Notes under the pieces: model-generated | Seen by the model: only the letters and a program-made list of their open reading frames with translations | The model's database searches: none | What the model was told of the DNA's origin: nothing | Translations under genes and position numbers: made by a program | Source of the DNA: an uncultured Nitrospirales bacterium | Lineage (GTDB): Bacteria; Nitrospirota; Nitrospiria; Nitrospirales; UBA8639 | Assembly: GCA_951812745.1 (NCBI GenBank) | Contig: OX638327.1 | Coordinates: 2,071,501-2,135,500 of the forward strand | DNA length: 64,000 nt | Direction of reading: 5' to 3' | In this document: piece by piece, positions 3,374 through 44,449 of the stretch | How the letters are laid out: each line of letters starts with the position of its first letter | Position numbering within the stretch: position 1 is the first letter of the stretch

Positions 3374-3874
3374 CATCTTCATCCGCTGGTCCGTCTTCGG
3401 GATTGAGTCTCCCTCATAAAGAACGTAACCGGACGCGGTTTTCTCGCGTCGCTTCTCGTCGAAACAGGACCATGGGGCCAAAGGCCTAGCCTCAAAATGC
3501 CTGGATAGGGCTTCTTTTTAAAGAGGTGGGTCTTCTTTTTTGTTGCCTTCTTCCATGGTTCAGTTTTAGGATAATCGCGTAGTCCTTGGCTTAGAGGGGC
3601 GACTGCAGTGCCTTGCCGAATAGCAAGGGGTTCTGTGGTTCTCCAGAAAATCGGGAAGGGAGGCGACAGGTTGGATTATCGGAGGTCTTTACTAGAGGGC
3701 CCTATCTAGGATAATGTTGTTGAAATGGACCGGAAATACGACGAGAAAAAGAGAGCAGAGAAGAAGGAACAGAGAAAACGCACGATTCAAATGAAAGTTT
3801 TTCCCGGCAAAGTGCCGATGGGCTGAGTTGCTAACGTAAACGTATGTAAACGTATCAAGAAGGGGAGGTCCGCG
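3374..3874 (+). other. 500-base non-coding leader upstream of the 2-oxoacid:ferredoxin oxidoreductase operon
   Basis: No gene is supported in this stretch. It is purine-rich near 3730-3790 and holds a tandem 10-bp repeat just before the first start codon. I see no clear rho-independent terminator for the upstream peptidase gene and no recognisable riboswitch. The length is unusual for this gene-dense window, so an extended 5' leader or several promoters is plausible. Confidence 0.6.
3836..3855 (+). repeat. Perfect tandem 10-bp repeat (GTAAACGTAT x2) before porB
   Basis: GTAAACGTAT occurs twice back to back, ending 19 bases before the porB ATG and just upstream of the ribosome-binding site AAGGGGAGG. 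It may be an operator for a dimeric regulator spaced one helical turn apart, or a chance tandem duplication in the leader. Confidence 0.7.
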
Positions 3875-4765
3875 ATGAGCCTCGATTATGTCAAGTTTAC
3901 ACCAGGGTTTGGAAAGTTCATGCCTAAAGAATATCGTGATATGGTGGAGCATGGTCCATTTGGGAAAAAAACCTCAGTCTCTCAAGTGGGAACCTTTAAG
4001 GAGATTTTAGAAGAACACCCGATGTGTGCAGGATGTGCCATGACCCTCTTCATTCGGCTGGCTATCATTGCTTTTCCGAATCCGGAAGATACCATCACGG
4101 TGGGGACGGCGGGTTGTGGCCGGCTGGCGATCTCGCAAGCAGCCATTCCATTCGTGTACGGCAATTATGGAGACCAGAATGGGGTCGCCAGTGGATTGAC
4201 CCGCGGCCTTCGACTGCGGTTTGGTGACAAACCGAAGGACGTGGTCGTGATGGCAGGAGACGGCGGCATGGCTGATATCGGGTTCGCCCAAACCCTCCAC
4301 TCGTGGTTCAGAAAAGAAAAGTTTACCACCATTATGTTGGACAATGAGGTCTATGGAAACACCGGCGGCCAGGAAAGTGGGATGACGAACAAGAATCAGG
4401 TATTGAAAATGGCGCCGCTCGGGAAGAAGTTCGAGAAAATGGATATGTTGGGTATGGCCAAAGTTGCCGGTTGCGCGTACGTGGCGACGGTGGTTCCCAA
4501 CAACCCACGGCGAGTTGAAAGTGTGATCAAAAAGGCCGTGCTGGTCGCGAGAGAAATCGGCCCCAGCTACATCCAGGCCTACACGTCCTGTAATATCGAA
4601 TACGCGATCCCGACGGACAAGGTGATGGAAGACGCCAAGACCGTGGAGACCGACCGCTATAAATTCTCGGAATACATTACGGATGAAGCCAAGGAGTATT
4701 TGTCCCAGTTGTACGGGTACAAAGAATATCTCCCGAAACCCGCCGCCGCTGTCACAAAGCAGTAA
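3875..4765 (+). CDS. porB: 2-oxoacid:ferredoxin oxidoreductase, beta (thiamine diphosphate) subunit
   Basis: A 296-residue beta subunit. The thiamine-diphosphate/Mg motif is GDGGMADIGFAQTLHSW starting near residue 128 and ending in LDNEVYGNTGGQ. Cysteines that could bind the catalytic-domain 4Fe-4S cluster are in MCAGCAM, GTAGCGR and TSCN. The enzyme reductively carboxylates acetyl-CoA to pyruvate or succinyl-CoA to 2-oxoglutarate with reduced ferredoxin, key steps of the reductive TCA cycle. Subunit sequence alone does not settle which substrate is used. It is the first gene of the B-G-D-E-A operon, with AAGGGGAGG before the ATG. Confidence 0.9.
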   Translation: MSLDYVKFTPGFGKFMPKEYRDMVEHGPFGKKTSVSQVGTFKEILEEHPMCAGCAMTLFIRLAIIAFPNPEDTITVGTAGCGRLAISQAAIPFVYGNYGDQNGVASGLTRGLRLRFGDKPKDVVVMAGDGGMADIGFAQTLHSWFRKEKFTTIMLDNEVYGNTGGQESGMTNKNQVLKMAPLGKKFEKMDMLGMAKVAGCAYVATVVPNNPRRVESVIKKAVLVAREIGPSYIQAYTSCNIEYAIPTDKVMEDAKTVETDRYKFSEYITDEAKEYLSQLYGYKEYLPKPAAAVTKQ

Positions 4766-4830
4766 GGGCGGTCGATTGAGTGAGTGAGGAAGGATCGGTG
4801 CGTACGTGACGAGAGAGGAGGGGGAAGACA

Positions 4831-5535
4831 ATGGCGATTCGTTATAACATTCGTATGGCAGGAGTCGGAGGCCAAGGGGTCGTCACGGGCTCTCATATCT
4901 TCAGTACAGGGGTGATCAATGCCGGTGGAGAAAGCACCATCGTGCCGTTCTATGGTTCAGAAAAGCGAATGGCGCCGGTGGAAAGTTACGTGAGGGTCTC
5001 TGACGAGCCGATTTATGAAATCGGCGAAATCACGTTCCCCCATATTATCATGATCTTTCACCCGCAGGTGATTACCCATGGGAAAAGCTACACGAATCCG
5101 TTTTACTTTGGATTGAAAAAGGACGGGATTGCCCTGATCAACCACGATGGGCCGATGAGACTCGAGCCTGACCAGGAGCGTGAACTCGCCGAATTGAACG
5201 CCAAACTGTTCTATCTGCCCGCCACGACCCTTTCGCTTGACGTGGCCGGCATCGACCTGGCCACGAATATGGCCATGGTGGGCGCCATGGGCGCCATTAC
5301 GAGTCTGACGAATATGGAGGCCCTGGCCCAAGCAGTGAAAGACCGGTTTCTGGGAAAAGGCTTTGTGGTGTCCGGAGGAACGGCCGCCTTGGATAGCGTG
5401 GTCGAGAGAAAGTTCAAGAAGAAGCAGGAATTGATCGAGAAGAATCTGGCGGTGGTCCAGGCGGCCTGGGAGTTTGCCGTCGAACATGATTGGGTGCAAG
5501 CGAAACGGACGGACACCTCGCCAGCCATGGCGTAG
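4831..5535 (+). CDS. porG: 2-oxoacid:ferredoxin oxidoreductase, gamma subunit
   Basis: A 234-residue gamma subunit. The N-terminus holds the glycine-rich family motif MAGVGGQGVVTGSHIFS, followed by the typical ESTIVPFYGSEKRMAP segment, and a later LDVAGIDLATNMAMVGAMGA stretch that matches the GLA-type gamma fold. The C-terminal 40 residues are charged and helical. It forms the complex with porB, porD, porE and porA and contacts CoA. The gap to porB is 65 bases, and the ATG is preceded by GAGAGGAGGGGG. Confidence 0.9.
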   Translation: MAIRYNIRMAGVGGQGVVTGSHIFSTGVINAGGESTIVPFYGSEKRMAPVESYVRVSDEPIYEIGEITFPHIIMIFHPQVITHGKSYTNPFYFGLKKDGIALINHDGPMRLEPDQERELAELNAKLFYLPATTLSLDVAGIDLATNMAMVGAMGAITSLTNMEALAQAVKDRFLGKGFVVSGGTAALDSVVERKFKKKQELIEKNLAVVQAAWEFAVEHDWVQAKRTDTSPAMA

Positions 5536-5561
5536 TGCTTTAACCGACGAGAGAGGCCTGT

Positions 5562-5891
5562 ATGTATTTAGTTGCGAATATCGATACCGAGATTTGTGCA
5601 GCCACGAGTTGCAAATTGTGCACGCAATATTGTCCCGAGGCCAATACCATCCTGTATGACAATGCGGCCGGCGAGGATAAAGGGTTCAAATATGGAGCCG
5701 CCTACGTGGCCGTGGATCGCTGTAAGGGCTGTGCGCAGTGTGTCTGGGTGTGCGACAACATGGCCAAGCACAATGCCATCAAAATGGAAATGATTGATCA
5801 AATCGGCAATACGGCCCTGACTGAAAACGTGACCTATGGCGAAAAAACCAGCAGTGCGGTCTTGGCCAATCCCGTTCGCGGGCAAATGTAA
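5562..5891 (+). CDS. porD: 2-oxoacid:ferredoxin oxidoreductase, delta (2[4Fe-4S] ferredoxin-like) subunit
   Basis: A 109-residue ferredoxin-type subunit with two clusters of cysteines. The second is the classic C54-x2-C57-x2-C60-x3-C64. The first is slightly altered, C12-x4-C17-x2-C20-x3-C24, and precedes a Pro as usual. It passes electrons between the thiamine site and external ferredoxin. It starts 26 bases after porG. The C-terminal 40 residues are a tail without cysteines. Confidence 0.9.
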   Translation: MYLVANIDTEICAATSCKLCTQYCPEANTILYDNAAGEDKGFKYGAAYVAVDRCKGCAQCVWVCDNMAKHNAIKMEMIDQIGNTALTENVTYGEKTSSAVLANPVRGQM

Positions 5892-5958
5892 GGGATTGCG
5901 TTTGGATCACAAGGACGGTATTCGTCTTAACTAGAAAAATGCAGAGTGGAGGATAAAG

Positions 5959-40546: not shown

Positions 40547-40554
40547 CACCTGTT
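40547..40554 (+). repeat. Left target-site duplication, CACCTGTT
   Basis: The eight bases CACCTGTT directly flank the left inverted repeat and recur at 43408-43415 at the right end. The length fits IS1-family insertion. Confidence 0.9.
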
Positions 40555-40576
40555 GGTAGTGTCTCAGTTTGAATTT
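40555..40576 (+). repeat. Left terminal inverted repeat
   Basis: Starts GGTAGTGTCTCAG and ends GAATTT; 22 bases, a perfect match to the reverse complement of the right end. Confidence 0.95.
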
Positions 40577-40619
40577 ACCGCCTCTCTCTTTTCCAATCCC
40601 GTTGTGTTAAGATCCCCGT

Positions 40620-40862
40620 ATGCCCAAAGGCCCGACAGGACAGAAACGGCCTGGTGATGTGATCGGAACCGCCATCAAGGTGGCGAAGATTGCGACCGGC
40701 GAAGTCGTAGACGAAACCATGGCTGGTAAAGAGTACGCGCAGAAGGGCGGAATAAAAGGCGGAAAGGTCAGGGCCCAGCGGCTATCACCCGAGAAGAGAC
40801 AAGAAATTGCCCAAAAGGCTGCACGGGCTAGATGGGGAGAAAAGGGGACATTAGCGCAATAG
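40620..40862 (+). CDS. Small basic passenger protein, 80 residues
   Basis: A Lys/Gly-rich protein: MPKGPTGQKRPGDVIGTAIKVAKIATGE, then GGIKGGKVRAQRLSPEK, ending in RQEIAQKAARARWGEKG. The C-terminal SPEKRxEIAxKAAxARWG motif occurs in many small bacterial proteins of unknown, possibly nucleic-acid-binding function. It is the first gene after the left inverted repeat, 43 bases inside the element. No partner gene is coupled to it. Confidence 0.75.
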   Translation: MPKGPTGQKRPGDVIGTAIKVAKIATGEVVDETMAGKEYAQKGGIKGGKVRAQRLSPEKRQEIAQKAARARWGEKGTLAQ

Positions 40863-40870
40863 GAACGAGT

Positions 40871-40900
40871 TTGCAGGAAATTACGTGAATCTTATATAGT
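40871..40900 (+). promoter_or_regulatory. Candidate sigma-70 promoter for the passenger operon
   Basis: TTGCAG and TATAGT with an 18-base spacer, 57 bases upstream of the toxin start. Fair match only. Confidence 0.4.
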
Positions 40901-40956
40901 TTCTTTTTTGGGGTGCAAGATGGCATCTCTTTCTAGAAATTCGGCTTTGTTTAAAC

Positions 40957-41364
40957 ATGGGATGTCACTGGACATTTTACGATTATGTGGATACAAAAGG
41001 TCAGAATATCATTAATTTATGGTTAAATAAAGAAGGGGAACAGGCAAAGGCCAAGTTTAATAGTAGAATCAATATGTTGGAATCAATTCCACATGGTCAG
41101 TGGAGACGACCATGGGTAGATACACTCAAGGATGAATGTGCTGGGCTTTTTGAAATACGAGTGAAATCATGTGGTTTGGAATTCAGAATTTTGGCTTTTC
41201 ATGGCCCTGGGCAACACTGTCCAACGTTAGCACTAGGGATAATTAAGTCTGGAGACAAGGTTCCTGTAGAAGATTGTAAACGAGCCTTGGACATTAAAGG
41301 CATTGTTTGGGCTCATCCATCTGAAAGGAGAGTTGTTCATGACCGCGATGGAGAAAAAGAATAA
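40957..41364 (+). CDS. HigB/RelE-like (Gp49-type) toxin, passenger gene
   Basis: A 135-residue protein with the RelE-superfamily pattern: NKEGEQAKAKFNSRINMLES, then LKDECAGLFEIRVKSCGLEFRILAFHGPG and a final IIKSGDKVPVEDCKRALDI. Proteins of this kind cut mRNA at the ribosome. It overlaps the downstream antitoxin by 26 bases, the usual HigBA order. The C-terminal 25 residues are longer than in most relatives. Activity is inferred from the fold only. Confidence 0.75.
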   Translation: MGCHWTFYDYVDTKGQNIINLWLNKEGEQAKAKFNSRINMLESIPHGQWRRPWVDTLKDECAGLFEIRVKSCGLEFRILAFHGPGQHCPTLALGIIKSGDKVPVEDCKRALDIKGIVWAHPSERRVVHDRDGEKE

Positions 41365-41902
41365 ATTTCTGCAAGAAGTTAGAGACTACAAATATCGTCA
41401 TGAGTACGTCTCCGCAAACATCGTAAATGGCTTGGCCTTTCAAATCGGGCTTATGCGGGACGCACAAGAATGGACTCAAGATGAATTAGCTAATCGCTGT
41501 GGTGAAACAGTCGAGTCAATTTCTCGCTTGGAAGATCCTAATGACGATGGATATACATTAAAGTCTCTCCTGCAAGTAGCTAAGGCGTTTGATGTTGCAT
41601 TGCTCGCCCGGTTCGCGCCATTTGGCGAATTAGCCGATTGGGTGATCAATCTAAATGATGAAAAGTTGACTCCGCTCCCATACGAAAATGAACAGTTGAA
41701 CCTCTTCTCTCAAGTTGAGACAATTATCGATCCTGACGACATAGAACTCTTGGATACATGGCAATTCGACCTTCCAGTAAGCTCGGCTATTGGAACCTCG
41801 TGGTCACCATCCTCAAGGAAGGCTGCCAAAGATGCTAGTCTCCCCAAAATTGCGACTAGACGTGACGCTAATAATCTCTCTTACTTGGGTAAGGTTGCAT
41901 AA
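41339..41902 (+). CDS. XRE-family antitoxin with long C-terminal extension, passenger gene
   Basis: A 188-residue protein starting at 41339, with AAAGGAG as ribosome-binding site. The HTH is in residues 25-80: MRDAQEWTQDELANRCGETVESISRLED. The next 100 residues are acidic, with no known motif, far longer than the 90-100 residues of simple HigA antitoxins. It starts inside the toxin gene, and the third gene follows after two bases, so all three are co-translated. Confidence 0.75.
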   Translation: MTAMEKKNKFLQEVRDYKYRHEYVSANIVNGLAFQIGLMRDAQEWTQDELANRCGETVESISRLEDPNDDGYTLKSLLQVAKAFDVALLARFAPFGELADWVINLNDEKLTPLPYENEQLNLFSQVETIIDPDDIELLDTWQFDLPVSSAIGTSWSPSSRKAAKDASLPKIATRRDANNLSYLGKVA

Positions 41903-41904
41903 AT

Positions 41905-42324
41905 ATGGAATTACGTGACGATATTCGACAAACTCTCGCTACTGAATTCCATTTTGCCGTTGGCAAAATGGAACAATCACAGCAGGTAAGCCTTGAACTG
42001 CTTTACTACTATAGTGCTTTTTTCGGAGCCATACAGCGTGCGCTGAACTTGGAATGGAACCGCGAATTGGCACTTTGTCACATGGTCATGAATTCTTCAT
42101 ATAAAGAAATGCAGGCCGCTGTAGAACAACAAATGATCAATTTTGTCCCGCCCACCTTACCAGAGAACCTAACGAATGCGTGTAAGGAAATTGCTCGTTT
42201 ATTCGATACTAATGCCATGACTCTAGAAAATCTTTACCCTCTTTTAGCGAGAATTGCCGAGTTGTCATATGCCACAACGGGAAACGGTCACTATAATATT
42301 ATGAAAGGGAATTTGCGGTTATAG
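41905..42324 (+). CDS. Third protein of the passenger operon, unknown function
   Basis: A 139-residue helical protein with no membrane segment: MELRDDIRQTLATEFHFAVGKMEQSQQVSLELLYYYSAFFGAIQRALNLEW. It starts two bases after the antitoxin stop, so it is part of one operon. I know no family match. Possibilities are a chaperone for the antitoxin, as in SecB-like three-gene TA systems, or a second antitoxin. Neither is shown by sequence. Confidence 0.65.
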   Translation: MELRDDIRQTLATEFHFAVGKMEQSQQVSLELLYYYSAFFGAIQRALNLEWNRELALCHMVMNSSYKEMQAAVEQQMINFVPPTLPENLTNACKEIARLFDTNAMTLENLYPLLARIAELSYATTGNGHYNIMKGNLRL

Positions 42325-42478
42325 GCAGCCTTTCTCTTCCATAACCTGTCCTGCACCTCCAGTCCTCTCTCATCTAAATCGCTTTCCTGTTTTCTCACCA
42401 TCCGTATAGCAGAAAGTAAGGAATAACAAGACTCGCTTTGTCTTGTCTATTTGCCGACATTTATAATGAAAAATATGC

Positions 42479-42507
42479 TTGACAAGCAAGCATTAATTTC
42501 ATATAAT
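42479..42507 (+). promoter_or_regulatory. Perfect consensus sigma-70 promoter of the IS1-type transposase
   Basis: TTGACA, a 17-base spacer, TATAAT: an exact match in both boxes. The -10 box ends only six bases before the transposase ATG at 42514, so transcription should start at or near that ATG. The mRNA would be leaderless or nearly so. Confidence 0.85.
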
Positions 42508-42513
42508 AGCATC

Positions 42514-43398
42514 ATGAACACGTTGCCAGACACCAAACGCATTCAGATTCTCTCCATGTTGGTTGAAGGCTCCAGCATGCGGACGGTTTCGCGCATTGTG
42601 GGCGTGAGCATCAACACGGTGACGAAACTCTTGGTGGAAGCCGGACAAGCCTGTGAAGCCTACCATGATGAACACGTTCGGAACGTCCACGCCTCAAAAG
42701 TGCAATGCGATGAGATCTGGAGCTTCTGCTACGCCAAGCAAAAGAACATGCGGGCAGCCCATGCAGCCCCTGAGCAAGCTGGTGACGTGTGGACGTGGAC
42801 GGCCCTTGAGAGTGAATCTAAGCTGATCCTGTCCTGGATGGTGGGAGATCGTGACGCGGGTTACGCCACGGAGTTTATGAGAGACTTGGAGTCACGGCTG
42901 GCAAACCGAGTGCAACTCACCACGGACGGACACCGAGCTTACCTTGAAGCCGTGGAAGACGCCTTCGGGAACAACATTGATTTTGCGCAACTGATAAAAC
43001 TCTACGGGGAATCGTCTGAGCCAGGCCCGGAACGGAAATATAGCCCGTCTGTCTGCAAGGGCGCACGAAAGCACACTGTCCAAGGCAATCCAGAGAAGAA
43101 GCACGTGTCAACGTCTCACGTGGAACGCCACAATCTCACCATGAGAATGAGCCTGCGACGGTTCACCAGATTGACGAATGCCTTCTCCAAAAAGATCGAG
43201 AACCATTGTCATGCGTTGGCCCTGTACTTCGTGTTCTACAATTTCTTGAAGATTCACAAGAGCCTGCGGGTCACTCCTGCTATGCAAGCCGGATTGACGG
43301 ATCAAGTGTGGGAATGGGAAGACGTGCTGAATCTGATTGATGCTCGGAAACCGGAACCGAAAAAGCGGGGACCCTACAAAAAGAGAAATTCAAACTGA
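42514..43398 (+). CDS. IS1-family transposase
   Basis: A 294-residue transposase. The N-terminal HTH is [34 protein letters not shown]. The DDE catalytic core is [15 protein letters not shown] and a downstream Glu in [17 protein letters not shown] region. The C-terminal tail is basic ([12 protein letters not shown]). The ATG at 42514 is the usual family start; an upstream in-frame ATG (42451) would extend the protein across the promoter. The stop falls within the right inverted repeat. The frame is intact. Confidence 0.9.
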
Positions 43399-43407
43399 GA
43401 CACTACC
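43386..43407 (+). repeat. Right terminal inverted repeat
   Basis: Reads AAATTCAAACTGAG...CACTACC, the reverse complement of the left end with no mismatch. Confidence 0.95.
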
Positions 43408-43415
43408 CACCTGTT
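43408..43415 (+). repeat. Right target-site duplication, CACCTGTT
   Basis: Exact copy of the left flank. Removing the element and one copy restores a continuous sequence between nfeD and the antitoxin gene. Confidence 0.9.
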
Positions 43416-43442: not shown

Positions 43443-43724
43443 TTATACCAATTCCAAGCGCACCTCGCGCCCGATGGCCGTGGCCGCTTTCTGCAACGTC
43501 GCCAAGGTGACCGCTTCATTCTCGGCGTCCAGCAACCGGTTCAAGGCACTGCGGCTGGTCTGCATTCGCCGCGCCATCTCCGTCTTGGTGAGCCCCTCTT
43601 GTGCCATCGCCGTAGCGACCTGACGCGCCAGCACCCGTTTGATGGCACCGGCGGTAACTTCTTGCCGGATGCCATCTTCGTCCAGCCAGCTATCGAACGA
43701 TGATCCGATGTTCTTCTTTCTCAT
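43443..43724 (-). CDS. HigA-type XRE antitoxin
   Basis: A 93-residue DNA-binding protein. The HTH is in the second half: GLTKTEMARRMQTSRSALNRLLDAENEAVTLATLQKAATAIG. Its start overlaps the stop of the toxin gene by four bases (ATGA). The gene belongs to the resident chromosome, not to the IS1-type element, which ends 28 bases before its stop. Antitoxins of this type repress their own promoter. Confidence 0.85.
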   Translation of the reverse strand: MRKKNIGSSFDSWLDEDGIRQEVTAGAIKRVLARQVATAMAQEGLTKTEMARRMQTSRSALNRLLDAENEAVTLATLQKAATAIGREVRLELV

Positions 43725-44071
43725 GGGCGTTCTCCCTGCTTGCGCCTTAGTGCCAACTCAATATCTTGCTTCGGGGTTTTCCGGCTCTTCTTGATGAAGC
43801 CGTGCAGCAATACAAGCCTCCCTTCATCCACGCAGAAAATGACCCGCGCGATCCTGCTTCCGCTGAGATTACTGCGCACTTCCCAGAGACCATGGCCCAG
43901 TGAGCGCACCAGCGGCATCCCAAGTGGCCAGGAAAATTCCACATCCTTGATATCTTCACCGATGATCTTACGGTCGGCAGGCTTGAGGCTCTTCAGCCAT
44001 TCCCGAACCGGTTCCCGCCCACTATCAGAGCGGTAGAAGTATGCGGGCAGACGTTTCAATTCCCGGGTCAC
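43721..44071 (-). CDS. HigB/RelE-like (Gp49-type) toxin
   Basis: A 116-residue protein counted from a GTG at 44071. Motifs: LPAYFYRSDSGREPVREWLKSLKPADRKIIGEDIKDVEF, then LGHGLWEVRSNLSGSRIARVIFCVDEGRLVLLHGFIKKSRKTPKQDIELA, the Gp49/HigB consensus. No ATG occurs near the start, so GTG or an upstream TTG (44086) must be used. Toxin is followed directly by antitoxin. It is separate from the similar pair in the adjacent transposon. Confidence 0.85.
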   Translation of the reverse strand: MTRELKRLPAYFYRSDSGREPVREWLKSLKPADRKIIGEDIKDVEFSWPLGMPLVRSLGHGLWEVRSNLSGSRIARVIFCVDEGRLVLLHGFIKKSRKTPKQDIELALRRKQGERP

Positions 44072-44449
44072 GGTCGAATGTATCAAAAATGGTACTGCAA
44101 AGACAATGAATACCTGTCCCTGGTCGGTGTCGGAGCCCTGGAACAGAATTCTGTGGCCCTGCTTACGACTGCGGGGAAAACGGAACGACAGAAAGAAAGG
44201 GCGATAGTTGTCAACGAACGACTGAACAACACAAGAGAAGGGCAGCCATATGGCTGCCCTTCTGCTTTTTGCAGTGAGCATCCAGTCCGCGACGCGGGCC
44301 ATGGATTATGCAGTTACTTAAATTTAGAACGATTAGTCAATTATTGTTTTGTCGGGACGGCTAGCGGCAGAAGTGGTGGCATTAGGATATGGCCCTACGG
44401 CAAGATGATGTTGAGGGATAAGTTGCAACCCCAAGGGCGGGCTCCTAGA
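44072..44449. other. Intergenic region with family D repeat and an orphan terminator
   Basis: Holds a family D repeat copy at 44209-44232 directly followed by a strong hairpin terminator. A frame is open across the whole region into trmI but has no family features before 44450. Confidence 0.6.
44236..44270 (+). terminator. Perfect-palindrome rho-independent terminator without an upstream plus-strand gene
   Basis: A 28-base palindrome built on AGAAGGGCAGCCA, followed by GCTTTTT. The T-run is on the plus side, but the gene before it (HigB-like) lies on the minus strand. It may be a leader attenuator for trmI or a leftover of a lost gene. Confidence 0.9.

Follow-up and report, generated by a model that had tools for sequence, protein, structure and literature searches.

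A three-gene operon of an uncultured Nitrospirales bacterium is best read, with moderate confidence, as a TAC-like tripartite toxin-antitoxin (TA) system whose antitoxin is watched over by a new all-helical, non-SecB guardian; the chaperone-like action of this third protein is inferred, and no experiment supports it. The operon lies in the 64,000-nucleotide stretch of DNA analysed here (the window), whose source genome is a single 2.35-Mb contig. In the literature consulted for comparison, TAC systems rest on SecB-like chaperones (PMC11618068, PMC5105189), the chaperone protecting the antitoxin by binding its C-terminal extension (PMC8165232, PMC11618068, PMC5105189).

In the proposed mechanism, the toxin would be a HigB/RelE-type nuclease that cleaves mRNA in a ribosome-dependent manner, and the HTH part of the antitoxin would repress the operon and help hold the toxin. 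The extension, which ends in the window in a ClpX-degron-like Val-Ala, would destabilise the antitoxin unless bound by the third protein. If the third protein were diverted, perhaps by a phage protein, degradation of the antitoxin would follow and the toxin would halt translation; the unit travels as cargo of an IS1-like transposon. Binding to the extension, proteolysis and the phage trigger are all inferred. That the third protein acts on the extension as a TAC chaperone does is inferred from the TAC precedent, the Val-Ala end and the match of the toxin profile to HigB1. If this is true, an unrelated family would stand in the SecB position behind Gp49-XRE, MqsRA and other pairs, partner control of antitoxin stability would be a general, convergent design, and the trio would be a compact system in which such control by a dedicated partner becomes testable.

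The operon and its toxin-antitoxin pair

The toxin, the XRE antitoxin and the third gene form one tight operon (Table 1): the antitoxin gene overlaps the toxin gene by 26 nt, its ATG has an AGGAG about 10 nt ahead of it, and the third-gene ATG comes 2 nt after the antitoxin stop. The first-pass annotation, made from sequence alone, had described a three-gene TA-like operon with this overlap and a 2-base gap, and its coordinates and description held. It had also claimed a 100-residue acidic extension of the antitoxin, of which the length proved to be about 95 and the acidity held only in part, and it overlooked both the degron-like antitoxin end and the surrounding transposon. A promoter and terminator scan of the locus gave signals at or below shuffle level.

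Table 1. Positions of the operon, the transposon around it and related features elsewhere (window numbering unless a locus is named)
Feature	Coordinates	Strand	Basis or remark
Left 8-bp target duplication CACCTGTT	40547..40554	.	identical to 43408-43415; single site in congener L089
Left terminal inverted repeat GGTAGTGTCTCAGTTTGAATTT, IS1-like transposon	40555..40576	+	perfect 22-bp inverted match to 43386-43407
Small basic "KGG" ORF, 80 aa, second passenger	40620..40862	+	63% identical ORF in the genome's second element
Toxin, Gp49/HigB-type (RelE superfamily), 135 aa	40957..41364	+	Pfam Gp49 above cut-off
XRE antitoxin, 187 aa, HTH core to about residue 92, ~95-residue extension	41339..41902	+	homologous to L049 antitoxin
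Third protein (139 aa) of a new all-helical family; proposed antitoxin guardian, not SecB-related	41905..42324	+	family alignment, model, linkage
IS1-like DDE transposase, likely start ATG 42514	42451..43398	+	DDE_Tnp_IS1 29 bits, cut-off 24.1; 88% identical second copy
Right terminal inverted repeat	43386..43407	-	repeat search
Right 8-bp target duplication CACCTGTT	43408..43415	.	identical to left copy
Second IS1-like element, outside window	L118 1057-4961 (G000:C1:2043556-2047460)		duplication CACAAGTG
~220-aa third-gene family	L039 4548-5216, L040 3023-3688, L053 3588-4250, L058 3513-4208, L063 1162-1902		
DUF3467-type third genes	L048, L051, L052, L054, L056, L057, L059, L060, L061, L062, L064, L069		

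The toxin (P0001) matches Pfam Gp49 with 32.8 bits against a cut-off of 23.9, and a PDB search with a toxin profile of 17 relatives found its best match in HigB1 of the M. tuberculosis TAC system (E=3e-4). In the alignment, R68, R77 and K97 are probably equivalent to the catalytic R68, R77 and K95 of HigB1, the equivalence of K97 being judged by inspection. Membership in Gp49/HigB is thus met by the profile match and the catalytic basic residues; RNase activity and toxicity are inferred. Some Gp49-like toxins of the relatives fall below the Pfam cut-off.

The antitoxin HTH scores 22.2 against Pfam HTH_3, just under the cut-off of 23. Beyond this domain lies a C-terminal extension of the TAC type (ChAD), the presence of which is shown and the ChAD function of which is inferred; its first ~60 residues are acidic, its last ~35 basic, and it terminates in Lys-Val-Ala. 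The window trio shares the toxin and the antitoxin HTH core with two-gene higBA or Gp49-XRE type II systems, from which the long extension and the conserved third gene set it apart. In HigA1 the C-terminal Val-Ala serves as ClpX degron (PMC8165232), and the last residues of CmdA are LAA (PMC11618068); the window antitoxin likewise ends in Val-Ala, and several relatives end in LVA, LVTA, LVYA, ALAA or MAAAA. The data do not support a degron shared by every partner antitoxin: terminal Ala occurs in 10 of 21 antitoxins with a new-family partner (p=0.16 against partnerless antitoxins). No common motif was recognisable among the extensions of the partner antitoxins.

Antitoxin tails differ in length with the third gene, the medians being 110 for DUF3467, 90 for the 220-aa family, 68 for the new family, 50 for SecB (two loci) and 32 for partnerless antitoxins. 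The tails were longer than those of partnerless antitoxins with both the new family (p=2e-4) and DUF3467 (p=3e-6). The partnerless control set is small and hand-picked, and these differences are indications only.

An undescribed all-helical protein family

The third protein has no family match in Pfam, NCBIfam, PADLOC or PHROGs, and single-sequence searches with it gave no match in 296 genomes of the phylum, a GTDB pattern scan, plasmids, phages or viral contigs. Orphan status was nevertheless rejected, about two dozen relatives having been found via an antitoxin profile. Scanning GTDB genomes with a five-row alignment of antitoxins led to 19 loci, among them L049 of a Dehalococcoidia genome, where a 34%-identical third protein stands behind a related toxin and antitoxin; profiles from the window/L049 pair of third proteins were used to find further members. 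The phylum of L049 yielded 3 carriers among 400 genomes, and the class to which one of the three belongs yielded 10 among 177. One phage contig also had a relative. In the phylum of L053 there were 3 carriers among 198 genomes, and the class of one of them had 10 among 241, the weakest matches there being doubtful. Matches with doubtful frames in L113 (E 8e-4) and L127 (4e-4) were left out of the counts. The hosts are Chloroflexota, the phylum of a deltaproteobacterial locus and a phage contig. Among 246 sampled genomes of its own phylum, only the window genome carries the family, and the plasmid and phage record collections held no relatives.

Full-length relatives are 25-41% identical. In an alignment of 13 members along their length (about 138-144 aa), E14, R45, G128, Y130 and G135 are invariant, and the C-terminus bears the signature SY(S/A)TTGNGYYLxxKGxLK. 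The closest pair, L081/L082, gave a dN/dS of about 0.20, indicating purifying selection on the third gene.

AlphaFold on a four-row alignment predicted a confident all-helical fold of seven helices (pLDDT 91.6, pTM 0.86). Foldseek of this model against the PDB and viral models gave no match at E<0.001, and no similarity of the fold to any chaperone was found. The first-pass annotation had held that the third protein does not look like SecB, and this stood: there is no Pfam SecB match, hhalign of the family against SecB was null, and the model is all-alpha where SecB is alpha/beta. The hhalign comparisons with DUF3467 and the 220-aa family were likewise null. Among other candidates, the DUF7952, BovA and portal-like matches were at chance level and each confined to one member, and PDB sequence matches of the family profile were mostly leucine-rich repeats, reflecting composition. 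The third protein is a member of a new family, all-helical and without sequence relation to SecB. The evidence bears out the earlier suggestion of a new accessory protein and takes it further, with chaperone action remaining an inference.

Linkage to toxin-antitoxin pairs and an exchangeable third slot

In 21 of the 22 third-gene loci with readable upstream sequence, the third gene is immediately preceded on its own strand by a toxin and an antitoxin; L079 and L086 are truncated by contig ends. The exception is L123 (third gene 586-1092), where an apparent ParE remnant precedes the gene without a complete TA pair; a transposase-like end was seen by eye upstream of the third gene there. At L071 (664-1036) the toxin frame is broken and continues in another frame while the antitoxin and third gene are intact, for which decay and assembly error are both possible. 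The third ORF is shown to be a real gene by this linkage, the full-length relatives and the low dN/dS.

One alternative is that the third gene is an unrelated passenger, standing behind the TA pair by chance in a transposon. The element does hold another passenger (the KGG ORF), and at L123 no complete TA pair stands in front of the third gene. This explanation is very unlikely, since the linkage extends over distant hosts and different TA families, mostly where no such transposon was detected, and the gene is under purifying selection.

The third gene follows Gp49-like toxins paired with XRE antitoxins from three subfamilies, as well as MqsR/MqsA in L111 (Pfam 2.4e-16 and 1.6e-25) and, by eye, in L126; in L121 and L125 it follows a toxin and a zinc-finger-like antitoxin, a pair left unassigned. 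The L111 MqsA has 203 aa against 131 positions in the Pfam model and terminates in MAAAA. What third-gene loci share across these TA families is an antitoxin extension and the third protein. A further copy, in L076, is borne on a phage contig, adjoining a portal gene (PDB portal match 2e-23) on one side and a terminase-like ORF, recognised by eye and without a PDB match, on the other.

Extension-chaperone pairs are transferable between TA families, MqsRA included (PMC5105189). The window trio resembles TAC/HigBAC systems (M. tuberculosis HigB1-HigA1-SecB(TA); CmdTAC) in the order toxin-antitoxin-third gene, the RelE-superfamily toxin, the C-terminal antitoxin extension, the Val-Ala end as in HigA1, and the occurrence of its third-gene family behind MqsRA, as with SecB. 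It differs in its all-helical third protein without relation to SecB, and any chaperone dependence is inferred. The trio stands outside the SecB-based TAC family, whose defining SecB-like chaperone it lacks.

A less likely possibility is that the third protein serves as a second antitoxin or a co-repressor, which binds the toxin or the TA complex directly or modulates repression, the extension being a mere linker. The tight operon and the linkage fit this equally well, and there are tripartite systems whose third gene plays such a role (HipBST, PMC9325769). However, one family serving both Gp49-like and MqsR toxins is hardly expected of a direct toxin inhibitor, the partner antitoxins have extensions, and no DNA-binding domain was found in the third protein.

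The third slot itself is conserved and its occupant exchangeable. In related Gp49-XRE operons the third position holds DUF3467 (Pfam), a 220-aa family (A7) or SecB (L007, L009), and a few such operons with short antitoxins have no third gene. Regular absence of the third gene from homologous operons had been named at the outset as a refutation. On this point the outcome is divided: the third-gene family almost never occurs without a TA pair, whereas among kin of the window TA pair the third position is more often filled by another protein or, in the few short-antitoxin cases, empty. Within the window genome, a paralogous operon (L038, G000:C1:972000-980000) has DUF3467 as its third gene, the congeners L039 and L040 have related three-gene operons with a ~220-aa third protein, and a related antitoxin sits in a three-gene operon of a Thiothrix plasmid. 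The L038 operon (3601-5919) runs from toxin through XRE antitoxin with a long extension and DUF3467 to a gene for a RES-domain toxin.

These DUF3467 (PF11950) and ~220-aa operons share the slot, the extended kind of antitoxin and the transposon type with the window trio, and differ in that their third proteins have no sequence relation to the window protein. DUF3467-type proteins are the commonest third gene behind extended XRE antitoxins. DUF3467 was considered as a hidden SecB and rejected: hhalign with SecB was null, and the model (beta-beta-beta-alpha, pLDDT 79) had no PDB match at E<0.001. No description of DUF3467 in TA operons was found in the literature searched, which left most subscription journals outside coverage, and the sole paper naming DUF3467 is unrelated. 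The ~220-aa family, with an MKL..ARSIWLF start and a DTRSSTED motif, has essentially no Pfam, NCBIfam or PDB match.

A slot accepting such unrelated proteins (DUF3467, ~220 aa, SecB and the new family) is also what exchangeable sensors would produce, and the third protein might be a dedicated phage or stress sensor or trigger on the antitoxin rather than a chaperone, or a second effector. The phage-borne copy, and the defence-like ClpP-like protease and ATPase in the second transposon copy, speak for this. The idea is unlikely, the third protein being small, single-domain and helical, without a known sensor or catalytic motif. For the guardian reading stand the linkage, the different TA families, SecB in the same slot, the longer tails, the Val-Ala end of the window antitoxin, the transferability of extension-chaperone pairs, the phage-borne copy and the transposon; against it stand the lack of experiments, of a general degron-like end, of a common extension motif and of a chaperone fold match, and the small, hand-picked control set.

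An IS1-like transposon with the trio as cargo

A complete IS1-like transposon (40555-43407), bounded by perfect 22-bp inverted repeats and an 8-bp target duplication, carries the trio as cargo. A repeat search found the inverted repeat 40552-40576/43386-43410 enclosing the KGG ORF, the trio and the transposase, and in congener G828 (L089) the flanks are contiguous without the element, as an empty site. The IS1-family features of a DDE transposase, terminal inverted repeats and a short target duplication are all met. The element is called "IS1-like" because two classical features are not: the NCBIfam IS1 equivalog scores 74.5 bits against a cut-off of 100, and the transposase is one continuous ORF without the two-ORF frameshift.

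A scan agnostic to end sequence (18-bp ends, at most 4 mismatches, exact duplication, trio enclosed) recovered seven complete elements (window, L051, L053, L054, L060, L062 and L069), all with GGT ends and 8-bp duplications; the same scan on 30 shuffled loci recovered none. Their third genes are of the new family in the window, the 220-aa family in L053 and DUF3467 in the other five. Around most other loci with the third-gene family no such ends turned up, even when the criteria were relaxed, and the trio thus occurs independently of these elements as well. IS1-like cargo transposons offer a simple explanation for the spread and swapping of modules, and the GGTAGTG..TCAGTTTGAA ends with 8-bp duplications provide a sequence handle for finding more cargo.

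The window genome holds exactly one further pair of such ends, bounding a 3905-bp element (L118). Where the window element has the trio, this one encodes a ClpP-like protease (Pfam match 1.6e-19) alongside an AAA/STAND-like ATPase; it also has an 88%-identical transposase, a KGG ORF and, by eye, a predicted membrane protein, and its cargo looks like a further undescribed one of the defence type. Tn3-family transposons also carry TA genes near the transposase (PMC7157771). The window element differs from them in being IS1-like, with 8-bp duplications and a three-gene cargo whose third gene is exchangeable, and in having a relative in which protease and ATPase replace the trio. Neither IS1-like elements with such cargo nor the third-protein family were found described in the literature searched, most subscription journals again being outside coverage.

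A bolder reading would have the helical non-SecB guardian plugged, with the antitoxin extension, behind unrelated TA pairs, so that chaperone addiction evolved more than once, in a slot that also takes DUF3467 or ~220-aa proteins, with IS1-like transposons shuttling the modules as exchangeable defence cargo. We lean slightly against this version.

KGG-type ORFs recur in both elements of this genome, the second one at L118 1696-1941, and similar ORFs were seen by eye near the trios at L085 1287-1505 and L067 3386-3628. Just outside the transposon, a second Gp49-XRE pair lies on the minus strand at 43443-44302; it is chromosomal and is present too at the empty site in congener L089.
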